Assembly (NCBI RefSeq): GCF_000513195.1
Contig: NZ_CBVI010000090.1
Span: forward strand, 1 to 64,000
Direction of reading: 5' to 3'
DNA: 64,000 bases
Source of the DNA: Bacteroides timonensis
Lineage (GTDB): Bacteria > Bacteroidota > Bacteroidia > Bacteroidales > Bacteroidaceae
How positions within the stretch are numbered: position 1 is the first letter of the stretch; every line of letters starts with the position of its first letter. The position numbers were made by a program, and so were the translations under genes. Positions 13,387 through 41,424 of this stretch are shown here, one piece after another. The notes beneath the pieces were generated by a model, which worked only from the letters and a program-made list of their open reading frames with translations, ran no database searches and was not told where the DNA came from.

Positions 13387-14178
13387 TTACTTAACCCTCA
13401 AACAAGAAAGATCATCCTTGGTTATATATAAAAGACAGTAATCATCCGAAGATGTATTTAATCCCAAATTATCCGGCTTAATTGTGTTCCATACATCTAA
13501 CAACGCAGTGCAGATGCCCTCAAACTCAGCCAATTCATAACGATATTTATAGTCAAGAGCTTTTTCCCGCCAATAATCCGTTTGTTTGCACAAATGTTCC
13601 CAATGCTTATTGGCAATGCAATCTTTAAGTTTTTGAGCTATTTCTCCCCAATCATTTTTCGGCACATAAGGCATATCCTCTATAAACTGAATCAGATGAT
13701 TAAACTCATTCACAGATAAAACAACCCATGTGCCACGCTCTCGGACTTCTTTCCTTCTTCTCTCAACCCAGCTTTTAGCTTGTGCCGACACACCATCTTT
13801 AAAGACAAAATAACTCTTACAATCAATAGGATGGCCTGCCAACAAATCTTTGGAATGACTTATCTTACTTTCTAAGGAAGATACACTTAAATTATCCACA
13901 TTCTCATATCCCATTCTCAATTCCACTAACATCAACCGAGAAGCAGTAATACGGTTGTTTTCATAATTCCCGACTCCAATAGCAGCATCCATCGTACTGT
14001 CTTTACTACCCTTGCAGACATTAGTTTCGTAATCATCGAGCGAAAGGCAAACAATGCGTCCGTCAAACCAGCCTGATCTCTGATAATCTCTCGCAGCAAT
14101 GCCATCCAATGTAGACTGACAATGACAGGCAAAAGGGTGGGATATTACAATATCATTCTGACAAACCAGTTGAACCAT
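13387..14178 (-). CDS. unrecognised partner protein of the ATPase operon
   Basis: I do not recognise this 263-residue soluble protein. The start at 14178 was chosen because it overlaps the upstream ATPase gene by only 26 bases; an in-frame start at 14226 is possible. Numbering from 14178, residues of note are a His/Cys cluster near the N-terminus (ISHPFACHC, 12-20), LVELRMGY (84-91) and ESKISHS (103-109). The spacing of acidic and Lys/His residues in these last two could be a nuclease-like core, but I cannot assign a family. Overlap with an SMC/OLD-like ATPase gene suggests a two-component effector pair, as in several phage-defence systems. This role is inference. Confidence 0.6.
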   Translation of the reverse strand: MVQLVCQNDIVISHPFACHCQSTLDGIAARDYQRSGWFDGRIVCLSLDDYETNVCKGSKDSTMDAAIGVGNYENNRITASRLMLVELRMGYENVDNLSVSSLESKISHSKDLLAGHPIDCKSYFVFKDGVSAQAKSWVERRRKEVRERGTWVVLSVNEFNHLIQFIEDMPYVPKNDWGEIAQKLKDCIANKHWEHLCKQTDYWREKALDYKYRYELAEFEGICTALLDVWNTIKPDNLGLNTSSDDYCLLYITKDDLSCLRVK

Positions 14179-15472
14179 AATCTTGAATACGTGAGATGGC
14201 GATATTAAATGATTTGAATATTTCACTTATATCATTGCCCAAATCCTTATACACATATTGCATAGAGTCTTCTGAAGCTCTTTCTGCCTGATAGAAGCAG
14301 GTATTTCTCAGCACGTCCTCTTTACGGGCTATGGACTGGATAGCAGAAACCATATCGGGATTATGGGTTGCAATCATTATTTTAAGTCCCAGTTGCTTAT
14401 GAAGCAGTACCAATAAGCGGGCAAACTCCACAATCCATTGGGGATGCAGATGTGCCTCAGGCTCGTCAATAAGCAAAAGAGATTCTTCATTTAGATATCC
14501 ATTCTCAAGCAAGCGTTGCAGATAAGCGAATGATTTGATTCCGGTAGCTGTATATTCAAGTTTAATATTTAAGCCATCAGTACGATGATAATGCAATTCT
14601 TCATCTTTAAAAACATCTTCATCAGCAGATATCCGACCTCCTATGGAACGTTTTATGCGAGCTAGAAAAGTCTTACCCTGTTCCGGCATATCATTTCCTT
14701 CAGATTTAAGCATCATATCTACCAATTCCGCCCAATGCTTCAACTCAGGATAATCCATCGACAGTGCCATAGGCGTATCAACATAAATAGCTCTATGTAA
14801 CATATAAGGTATACTAAAATCTTGTTCTGTCAAAAGAGATGTTTGATCTTCATAAAGTTGAATAGAAGCTGGAATTTCAGCACTATCCTCTTCAGCCAAA
14901 AAATAGCTTATATACTTTCCCAAAGAAGCGACTGGATGTTTACTCAAATCACTTTTGGCACTCAAATACGCAGCCTCAACATCTTCTTTCAACTCGGTGC
15001 AATAAAAGAATACATAATTTTCCCAATTATCAAGTTCTTCTTCCGGTACGGATAAATATATTAAAATACGATTTTTATTCCTCTTATCACCACCATCAAT
15101 ATAACTTAAAAGTTCTTTCTGAAAGGAGTCTATTATGTCCAAACTCTGATTGAAAAGGCCATCTATATCACCATAAAATACTTTTGAGCCAAGCATTCGA
15201 CTATAAGTAACATTGCTATTCTCATCTCCCCGAGCTTTTATATCCCTCCGAACTCTGTCCGGCTTACGCAGATAACTTTGTATTTTCTTGAGTAAGTCTT
15301 TATAAACAAACTCATCAAACTTATTGAAACCATTTATCAGATAATAAAGCCAACGGGACAGGGTACTTTTCCCACATCCGTTTTCTCCGGCCAGTACAGT
15401 TATGCCATTAATGGTAATATCTGCCTCCTTTATTGCATGATAATCGGATAATGTGTATCTGTAATTACTCAT
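14153..15472 (-). CDS. SMC/OLD-like AAA ATPase (AAA_21 type), possible defence ATPase
   Basis: The 439-residue protein has an ABC-like ATPase head. Walker A is GENGCGKST (K35), preceded by the strand TINGITVLA. Walker B is LLLIDEPEAHLH (D336, E337), and the His of IATHNPDM acts as the switch. The middle 250 residues are an inserted helical region rich in charged residues. This arrangement is typical of AAA_15/AAA_21 ATPases in OLD, Septu, PARIS-like and related systems. It overlaps the downstream partner gene by 26 bases, so they are translationally coupled. It has its own promoter element on the minus strand. The family name is well supported; the defence role is inferred from domain class and pairing. 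Confidence 0.82.
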   Translation of the reverse strand: MSNYRYTLSDYHAIKEADITINGITVLAGENGCGKSTLSRWLYYLINGFNKFDEFVYKDLLKKIQSYLRKPDRVRRDIKARGDENSNVTYSRMLGSKVFYGDIDGLFNQSLDIIDSFQKELLSYIDGGDKRNKNRILIYLSVPEEELDNWENYVFFYCTELKEDVEAAYLSAKSDLSKHPVASLGKYISYFLAEEDSAEIPASIQLYEDQTSLLTEQDFSIPYMLHRAIYVDTPMALSMDYPELKHWAELVDMMLKSEGNDMPEQGKTFLARIKRSIGGRISADEDVFKDEELHYHRTDGLNIKLEYTATGIKSFAYLQRLLENGYLNEESLLLIDEPEAHLHPQWIVEFARLLVLLHKQLGLKIMIATHNPDMVSAIQSIARKEDVLRNTCFYQAERASEDSMQYVYKDLGNDISEIFKSFNIAISRIQDYGSTGLSE

Positions 15473-15507: not shown

Positions 15508-15901
15508 GAGCATTTCTTTGGATTAATAAACAAACTCGTCGAATTCTTTTCCTTTATAATTTCTATAAAAACTCTGAAAATACAATCATTTTATCAATCT
15601 GACAATTTGATAATCCCATCACGCGAGAATATCTTCTTTCCGCCCGAAGATAAGGAAGGAAGAAAAAAACGCAAGGATTTCAATTTGCAGAAACGCAGGA
15701 AGAAGGGGAAAAGCACTTTTGGAAGAACATCATGGAAAGATTTGTCCTCTTTTAGTGTTTTAATGCCCGATATCGGGCGGAATGCTGACAAAAGGTGGGA
15801 TTGCCGGTTATCACGTCATTCGTTCAACCAGAAGAAAATAAAGCATGTTTCCGGTAAGGCTACACCCTTTCATCCACATGGTATCACCCTTTCAGGGAAA
15901 T

Positions 15902-15932
15902 GGCTACACCCTTTTTGGGAAAAGGTGTAGCC
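15902..15932. other. hairpin inside the 22-bp array
   Basis: GGCTACACC (15902-15910) pairs with GGTGTAGCC (15924-15932). The stem extends inward through CTTTT/AAAAG with one bulge. It arises from adjacent array units carrying complementary words. Confidence 0.7.
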
Positions 15933-15942
15933 CTACCGAAAA

Positions 15943-15981
15943 ACAGATGGTGTATTTTACTTGAATACATCATCTGTTTTG
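15943..15981 (+). terminator. terminator-like hairpin inside the 22-bp array
   Basis: ACAGATGGTGTATT (15943-15956) pairs with AATACATCATCTGT (15964-15977) with one mismatch and a 7-base loop, followed by TTTT. It could terminate transcripts from the left. No gene on the plus strand feeds into it, so its function is unclear. Confidence 0.4.
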
Positions 15982-16151
15982 TCTGAAAAGACCATCCGTT
16001 CAAGGCAAATAGATGGTGTATTGCAACAAAAGGGATAGTGTTTCTCCCGAAAAGAGACGATGGATTGCGCTAAAAGGAGTAATTCAATCCAATGCTACGT
16101 CAACAGAATATACGAAATTACATCTTTATGTCAGCAAAATAGCAATATCTT

Positions 16152-16159: not shown

Positions 16160-16217
16160 AAGCAGACTGAAAAGCACTCAGCAATATTTCACAAGTCTTA
16201 TTCTCTCAGTTACCCCG

Positions 16218-16306
16218 TTACCCCCACTTTATTACAAAATATCTGCAAAGTTACCCCTACTTTATTACAAATAACAGGGAATCATACCCCCACTTCATTA
16301 CAAAAT
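16218..16306. repeat. three tandem copies of a 33-bp repeat
   Basis: A 23-base core of the type TTACCCCCACTTTATTACAA starts at 16218, 16251 and 16284, exactly 33 bases apart. The cores differ at only a few positions, while the 10-base spacers between them are unrelated. An extra TTACCCC lies just before the first copy. Because 33 is a codon multiple, the plus strand would encode an 11-residue repeat (VTPTLLQN), but the surrounding frame does not look like a real gene. Confidence 0.8.
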
Positions 16307-16407
16307 CATTATCTTTATACTGAAAAACAAACACTTAAGCTTTTATGATAGAACGTAGACTTTTATCCTCCTTGACCGAATGGAAAAACAGTAAAAACAG
16401 AAAGCAT

Positions 16408-41290: not shown

Positions 41291-41296
41291 CACTGT

Positions 41297-41358
41297 GTTT
41301 TTCATAGTATTAGATTTAAGGTTAACAAAGGTTGGAGTACAGCGGTACTCCTTTTTTT
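41297..41358 (+). ncRNA. putative small RNA (copy A of a paralogous pair)
   Basis: A consensus promoter lies just upstream, and a perfect terminator (GGAGTAC at 41334-41340, GTACTCC at 41345-41351, then seven T) ends the unit, giving a transcript of about 60 bases with no start codon or reading frame. Its core (TTTTTCATAGT then TTTAAGGTTAA) recurs in the unit at 59957-60035, which has a different terminator stem. It may be a member of a dispersed Bacteroides small-RNA or leader family. The start base is estimated from the -7 element. Confidence 0.5.
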
Positions 41359-41424
41359 ATGCCCATACTTTACAGGAAGGTTCACAAAAATGCCATTTTG
41401 ATTGAAGTATTGCCAATAATACCC

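Follow-up and report, generated by a model that had tools for sequence, protein, structure and literature searches.

The window analysed here is a 64,000-nucleotide stretch of contig NZ_CBVI010000090.1 from Bacteroides timonensis (genome G000). Between two divergent genes, one for an ATPase and the other of the GH76 family, lies a degenerate repeat array whose features are collected in Table 1. The ATPase and a partner gene lie within 13387-15472; the ATPase is an AAA_15/AAA_21 protein resembling the defence ATPases HEC-02A, NsnB, AriA, and PtuA, and the partner had no match in Pfam or PADLOC. An earlier note on this DNA had claimed an exact, non-coding 22-bp period across 15793-16078. Autocorrelation against shuffled controls upholds that period: the self-match at lag 22 is 0.470 compared with 0.252 ± 0.026 for shuffled sequence, and none of 2000 dinucleotide shuffles equalled it. 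The top lags over the same interval are 22, 44, and 66, and the observed maximum was unequalled at every lag from 5 to 59 in 500 shuffles. The extent given in the note fared less well. Measured in 44-base steps, the local lag-22 match is only 0.23 at 15786, 0.30 at 15808, and 0.18 at 16072, and because of these weak edges the array is assigned the approximate bounds of Table 1 and 11-12 units, rather than the 13 gapless units counted from 15793, the first two of which are weak. TRF finds just three copies (15861-15926), in keeping with the degeneracy of the array. A coding repeat, which the note had also excluded, is ruled out since 22 is not a multiple of 3 and 26 of the 29 places with a lag-22 signal in an 800-kb genome sample (see below) are mostly non-coding. 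Elsewhere in the window, a 33-bp unit (GTTACCCCCACTTTATTACAAAA...; 33 = 3 × 11) occurs in three copies at 16217-16315; its other genome matches are no better than E 0.2, and it is missing from the aligned G073 ortholog.

Table 1. Features of the focal array and further lag-22 arrays of the window (coordinates are window positions)
Feature	Start	End	Strand	Remarks
Whole array, 22-bp register	15813	16084	.	lag-22 match ≥0.5 in 88-bp windows
Conserved core, five species	15821	16010	.	
Block 1, four-word GGCTACACC/GGTGTAGCC element	15848	15942	.	words F 15858, F' 15880, F 15902, R 15924
Block 2 hairpin AAAACAGATGGTGTATT-7-AATACATCATCTGTTTT	15940	15980	.	arms 94% complementary
Diverged repeat of block 2 word	16007	16022	+	66 bp (3 × 22) past 15941-15956, 94% identical
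Right tail of array, unconserved	16011	16078	.	
Second lag-22 array, other words (GGATATATAG...)	31795	32029	.	lag-22 scan
Third lag-22 array, TGCCA-N6-TGGCA words	57955	58142	.	half-period 11; lag-22 scan

The array is built of two blocks. Block 1 is composed of four 9-bp words, with GGCTACACC denoted F, its reverse complement GGTGTAGCC denoted R, and the variant GGTATCACC denoted F'; the word starts are exactly 22 bp apart in the order F F' F R, which bears out the earlier description of words in both orientations. This block belongs to a family dispersed in its own genome and in other Bacteroides. Block 2 (15940-16078) consists of a 17-bp hairpin, the same in five species except for one loop base, followed by diverged repeats. 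RNA folding of 15793-16100 is predicted to be strong on both strands (z -5.1 and -6.6). The nested hairpins of the note thus stand as predicted folds, while selection on them is unsupported, given that the spacer arms of the GGTGTAGCC family covary at most slightly.

The focal array is also present upstream of the GH76 gene in four related species (G063, which is B. stercorirosoris, G089, G073, and G133). Homology with these species starts at 15592 and extends through both the array and the GH76 gene downstream of it, interrupted by gaps in two species, and none of the four has a close relative of the ATPase. The ATPase is therefore uninformative as a neighbour, which removes the ATPase operon that had been proposed as the context of the array, and the ATPase locus may be an island. 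The conserved core differs from G133 at 12 of 190 positions, compared with 52/227 and 22/72 in the flanks and 193/1189 in the GH76 gene; the corresponding values against G073 are 13/190 for the core, 50/229 and 16/72 for the flanks, and 89/1199 for the gene. The core is more conserved than its flanks. Its difference from G073 (6.8%) is barely below that of the GH76 gene (7.4%). The flanks of G063 and G089 differ by only ~3% from the focal locus, yet the right tail of the array shows 9 differences in 68 positions even from these two species.

The family to which block 1 belongs provides the most detailed view of the 22-bp register. The pattern R-N13-R was present in 15 of the 119 genomes of the genus searched, B. 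timonensis included, with at least two matches in 11; among the matches listed, carriers include B. stercorirosoris, B. cellulosilyticus, B. oleiciplenus, B. fluxus, B. muris, and B. fragilis. Single matches to the GGTGTAGCC pattern in unrelated bacteria are probably due to chance. When same-orientation (R-R) word pairs were searched in eight Bacteroides genomes with the gap left free from 2 to 32 (31 gaps), 178 of 179 were exactly 22 bp apart, the 178 being taken from the totals of a fixed-gap count and the matches listed all being 31 nt. F-R pairs have a spacing of 22 bp in 74 of the 75 places listed, out of 83 places in all. Among 388 neighbouring word pairs in the loci examined, many of which were themselves retrieved with the 22-bp pattern, 337 have the 22-bp spacing and all four orientation pairs are represented; the remainder are spaced at 11 bp (31 pairs), 44 bp (10), 33 bp (3), or other distances (7). 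Since the spacing is equal for every orientation pair, the register is set by the word centres.

The layout of the elements is likewise recurrent. A 75-bp core of four words is found in 97 of 136 distinct clusters, most commonly as the F-R-R-R type (67 of the 97), with all four words in the same orientation in five. Near-palindromic variant words (GGTGTCACC and GGTGATACC), which look like the left half of one orientation joined to the right half of the other, recur at seven loci (L001, L004, L008, L011, L028, L128, and L215). In genome G063, one array is present twice (C59:1025-1099 and C80:22707-22781), the copies sharing their spacers but facing opposite ways, which reflects either a recent duplication or an assembly effect. 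Comparison of 19 orthologous groups revealed substitutions at 2.3% of 684 word sites and 10.7% of 741 spacer sites (Fisher p 9e-11). Words of the GGTGTAGCC family change 4.6 times more slowly than spacers, in a test biased toward slow words by the finding of elements through their words and the picking of pairs by hand.

The position of these elements relative to genes bears on an explanation in which the arrays act as RNA, namely as 3'-end hairpin arrays serving as bidirectional terminators or mRNA-stability elements. Along with the strong predicted folds on both focal strands, proximity to stop codons favors this explanation: with orthologous copies counted separately, the stop-to-element distance is at most 50 bp in 35 of 58 values for convergent pairs and in 14 of 41 for tandem pairs. 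In the 41 tandem pairs, the median position is 63 bp past the stop and 154 bp ahead of the next start, and 14 of the 16 divergent values, again with orthologous copies counted separately, lie at least 150 bp from the start. A convergent context is seen for 20 of 61 loci drawn from several genomes, compared with 19 of 135 G000 intergenic regions of at least 200 bp; against this, contexts in the mixed 800-kb sample (18 tandem, 5 convergent, and 5 divergent; n = 28) are near background, and the focal array itself sits between divergent genes. TTTT was observed within 8 nt of 50 of 194 outer ends and at 73 of 952 nearby positions, an excess that may in part reflect the T-rich word edge, and 144 of the 194 ends are without it. 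Over seven positions of the F1/R4 spacer arms in 40 elements, mean pairing is ~0.39, barely above the ~0.35 of independence (significance uncomputed), and spacer covariation, being at most slight in the GGTGTAGCC family, was rejected as evidence for hairpins. Hairpins do not require a 22-nt period, and the five elements with all words in one orientation are hard to accommodate. Finally, F-R-R-R elements between tandem genes are oriented with transcription in 12 cases and opposite to it in 15, so there is no strand bias relative to transcription in this family. We consider action as RNA unlikely.

Beyond this family, the focal array proved to be one member of a genome-wide class comprising many unrelated word families, rather than the single element of the earlier note, and similar arrays, whose occurrence in other Bacteroides intergenic regions the note had put forward as a check, were found in the same genome and in others. 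A blastn search of the 7.0-Mb genome with the focal array gave 72 matches at E ≤ 10, of which 27 were at E ≤ 0.001, counting the self-match and some places on both strands. A lag-22 signal was detected at 29 places in the 800-kb sample, while the neighbouring lags gave none (20), three (21; one non-coding), and two (23). This sample is not fully unselected, as its contigs were known from the blastn search and some stretches hold blastn matches; taken at face value, it corresponds to ~200 arrays per genome in order of magnitude. When fundamental periods of 9-100 were assigned across 864 kb of G000 (the 800-kb sample plus the window), 30 of 41 non-coding arrays had a period that is a multiple of 11, either 22 (24 arrays) or 11 (6), and the other 11 had periods of 12, 14 (three), 16 (two), 21 (two), 23 (two, both strong), and 80. 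The clustering at 22 and 11 fits the suggestion, made in the note, that each unit presents its word on the same face of the helix. Periods divisible by 11 also account for 24 of 37 arrays in G073 and G089, where some stretches were selected for an array, and for 6 of 8 in G012 and G021; the counts are 1 of 12 in G017 and three other families of the order (314 kb) and 0 of 2 in 200 kb of E. coli.

The 29 sampled arrays fall into 16 sequence groups joined by 20 similarity links, compared with no links among 29 control intergenic segments. The window itself contains two further arrays built from other words (Table 1). A resemblance to the second was noted by eye in an array of G073 (L268:7937-8186), and the third clusters by similarity with two further arrays of its own genome. 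By eye, families other than GGTGTAGCC also have approximately four units per array. Of 28 arrays, 11 have dyad symmetry beyond that expected from the period (p < 0.05; combined p 2e-9), and 17 show no significant dyad. Intrinsic curvature was rejected as the basis of the arrays: in a wedge model, there was no excess over period-keeping permutations in the 28 arrays (mean z 0.27). In Prevotellaceae or Bacteroidaceae, GGTGTAGCCAA or its variants recur with an 11-bp period (L119, L145, L152, L154, L166-L168, L172, L174, and L181), in most cases with an inverted counterpart nearby (CTCTACCC...GGGTAGAG); they may represent a one-turn version of the 22-bp arrays. An array of 22-bp period is present in L176.

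Orthologous comparisons revealed turnover at some sites. Pooled over orthologous arrays, the difference is 0.114, compared with 0.103 for non-coding and 0.109 for coding DNA; the whole array is therefore no more conserved than its surroundings. Indel events per kb number 17.8 in arrays, 14.0 in non-coding DNA, and 6.3 in coding DNA, to which the alignment of exchanged units may contribute. At one site common to G014, G073, G089, and L143, flanked by genes that we take to be cmk and ispH, the words are mostly retained, the spacers have changed, and one word is reversed. Between the sister species G073 and G089, arrays of different words occupy two intergenic sites whose adjoining DNA is 97-99% identical (L269/L273 and L272/L276), as well as a third (L268/L232) where G089 has ~2 kb of extra DNA. 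One array lies in a segment found only in G089, and eight lie in blocks of extended collinearity; the stretches containing these eight had mostly been selected since both species matched the word, and L232 had been selected for an array. Array-free intergenic segments have been exchanged between the two species too, and the arrays were therefore rejected as special recombination hot spots. Two side observations concern other repeats at these and related loci. Six G000 loci (L002, L003, L005, L006, L007, and L010) have 317-787 bp of mostly non-coding cassette in common, and in two of them, L003 and L005, arrays of two families lie next to each other, accompanied by a small relic-like reading frame. 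A palindromic hairpin (CACCACAGAGTAACACAGAG...) whose internal period is 10 bp occurs near L273:8735-8825, L276:14450-14545 and 14915-15010, and L268:13331-13420; the L268 copy is a ~100-bp insertion relative to L232 and looks like a mobile MITE-like element.

Such turnover invites an explanation by mobility, in which the arrays are non-autonomous MITE- or REPIN-like elements, their words are sites for trans-acting transposases (one per family), and their location reflects tolerated insertion. The dispersal of the families, with 20 links among 29 arrays and none among controls, is as expected for such elements, as are the fixed four-word layout of the GGTGTAGCC family, the differences between sister species in array presence or family at some sites, and the array-bearing cassette common to six G000 loci. 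Set against these are the age of some sites, such as that shared by G014, G073, G089, and L143, and the lack of any terminal sequence beyond the word in 40 aligned elements. Neither a clean empty site nor a target duplication was found for any array, the replaced segments covering much of the intergenic region, and similar replacement affects array-free regions. The Y1 transposase (PF01797), present in four of nine genomes, is absent from the array-bearing G073, G089, G097, and G021, a point that covers only Y1/RAYT enzymes. We regard mobility as a real contender, albeit one that is rather doubtful as the full explanation; the arrays possibly spread as MITE-like elements.

Array segments have also inverted in place without loss of register, with two clear cases between species. 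In one orthologous group the interior from word 1 to word 4 is inverted, and flipping it raises the identity from 50 to 67 and from 52 to 69 of 75 positions; in the second, the segment from word 3 to word 4 is inverted, with identity rising from 68 to 74 and from 65 to 71. Flipping helps other pairs less or ambiguously (among them 53 to 62, 47 to 52, and 62 to 65). An invertible promoter (inverton) is marked by a segment that flips between inverted repeats within a population, whereas the two clear inversions here separate species. Flips between inverted words, like the sharing of one architecture by many word families, would be produced if the arrays were functionless mutational by-products, arising from template switching at hairpins and from slippage that copies local sequence in two-turn steps. 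Such a process would not be expected to place an identical word at many distant loci in several species, nor to leave words that change more slowly than spacers and a conserved focal core; it should also yield arrays with periods of 21 and 23 bp, which account for two each among the 41 of G000. A purely mutational origin appears very improbable. These explanations are not mutually exclusive with one another, and spread driven by mobility is compatible with binding by proteins.

The reading we prefer, although we place it somewhat short of an even chance, is that the arrays are helically phased sites on double-stranded DNA for putative proteins, approximately four per patch, situated between genes. 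Words held at 22 bp, or in some arrays 11 bp, would lie on one face of negatively supercoiled DNA. As 22 bp corresponds to 2.1 turns of relaxed B-DNA, same-face phasing presumes ~11 bp per turn. The word of each family would be a site recognised about its centre by a putative protein that is dimeric or pseudo-symmetric, and the approximately four sites, two turns apart, would nucleate a short cooperative nucleoprotein patch in intergenic DNA. Such a patch would function in either orientation of the array and of its neighbours; it might, for instance, delimit transcription or supercoiling. Protein binding, its dimeric nature, and any effect on transcription or chromosome structure are what we infer from the register and its independence of word orientation, the slower change of words than spacers, the lack of strand bias, the dyad symmetry, the in-place inversions that preserve the register, and the conserved focal core. 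Because the words of different families are unrelated, no single sequence-specific protein can serve all of them. Further points against the phased-site reading are the pooled conservation and indel counts of the arrays, the small margin between focal core and GH76 gene in the comparison with G073, the unconserved right tail, the bias of the word-versus-spacer test, the lack of excess curvature, the 17 arrays without a significant dyad, the location of the focal array between divergent genes rather than at a gene end, and the two strong 23-bp arrays of G000.

In its broadest form, which we put forward as a conjecture with the odds against it, large-genome Bacteroides would hold on the order of 200 helically phased, centre-registered arrays, with many fast-exchanging families sharing one architecture, as a hitherto undescribed element of the chromosome. 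If so, intergenic boundaries along the chromosome would be marked either by DNA-binding proteins that have diversified into a set or by a single protein that reads spacing and symmetry instead of sequence. Should proteins bind the arrays, the setting of transcription boundaries and the organisation of the nucleoid would become directly testable in Bacteroides, a genus with major gut commensals as well as the opportunist B. fragilis. Were the arrays no more than relics of mobility or mutation, their assembly from unrelated sequence by a two-turn ruler would still need explanation.

Several established identities were set aside. CRISPR arrays have near-identical direct repeats of at least 23 bp and unrelated spacers all of one length. 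The focal array, with degenerate words of 9-15 bp in both orientations and 13-bp spacers, is not one, as the earlier note had judged, and none of the seven proteins flanking it matched a Cas family in Pfam. A short orphan CRISPR of B. fragilis, with 24-bp repeats and 39-bp spacers, likewise differs in size from the 22-bp arrays (PMC5704556). Rfam families were rejected for lack of a match to the focal array at gathering score; the sole match in the whole window is to FopS, a family of paralogous sRNAs, at 41295-41361 (78 bits). Plasmid-type iterons, with repeats of about 22 bp, bear some resemblance to the arrays. A phage or plasmid origin was rejected: no plasmid match was found, the exact two-word pattern is present in two stretches of a viral contig collection, and one unverified phage record matches. 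This record (L295; MT837181.1), a 7.5-kb unannotated 'Bacteriophage sp.' entry of faecal origin, aligns with the four-word element at 78% over 1879-1955 and may be bacterial DNA deposited under a phage name.

The literature searched, outside which most subscription journals fall, yielded no recognisable account of arrays with a 22-bp period in Bacteroides, and the accessible portions of two B. thetaiotaomicron transcriptome papers make no mention of them (PMC7366714, PMC10994844). The comparisons that follow draw on the accessible portions of the papers cited. Porphyromonas belongs to the same order as Bacteroides, and a Porphyromonas gingivalis element is the closest published one found. This is the BrickBuilt MITE, with dispersed, intergenic, imperfect 23-nt tandem repeats in 19 copies in ATCC 33277; it forms one family with 1 to 22.8 repeat copies and a leader and tail ending in inverted repeats, is predicted to form long stem-loops, and has a leader and tail reported to possess bidirectional promoter activity (PMC4596501). 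The same report states that 22-nt direct repeats had been noted earlier in strain W83, the accessible text giving no exact locations (PMC4596501). The Bacteroides arrays are similarly dispersed and intergenic, with imperfect tandem repeats and predicted stem-loops. Unlike BrickBuilt as described there, they have 22- or 11-bp periods, often approximately four units, many unrelated families, and words in both orientations, and no leader or tail is seen in the GGTGTAGCC family. With respect to the MITE class as a whole, the outer words are often inverted (F-R-R-R), no sequence was seen to extend past them, and clean empty sites were not observed.

A REP is a palindrome of 20-40 bp bearing a GTAG or CGTC tag, and most REP dimers are separated by 20-100 bp (PMC3733652). 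The arrays resemble REP, BIME, and REPIN sequences, which are likewise short repeats scattered between genes in either orientation and in some REP families are clustered (PMC3733652). They differ in their fixed 22-bp register and many families, and RAYT-driven REPs were rejected given the absence of Y1/RAYT from several carriers. GTAG does occur in GGTGTAGCC but within an asymmetric word; other families were checked by eye. Pneumococcal BOX elements and SPRITEs, which belong to a set of three families and of which SPRITEs are enriched near gene 3' ends, are likewise composite intergenic repeats built of tandem modules; a fixed helical register, such as the Bacteroides arrays have, is not reported in the accessible text (PMC3049150). 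TAACTGA direct repeats, based on a seven-base word, also recur with a short period at many genome places, some in Bacteroidetes, and in the main genome studied most are just upstream of start codons (PMC4679880). The genome-wide ~11-bp periodicity of bacteria has been tied to the DNA helical repeat and in E. coli is concentrated in intergenic regions, but it is a dinucleotide signal, unlike the discrete, sequence-specific arrays of Bacteroides (PMC516772, PMC4132750). The usual explanation of dispersed intergenic repeats invokes either their sequence (REP, BOX) or their mobility (MITEs); in the present arrays, it is the spacing that is conserved. The arrays are a variant of dispersed intergenic repeats, in which the multi-family 22-bp register appears to be the new part.
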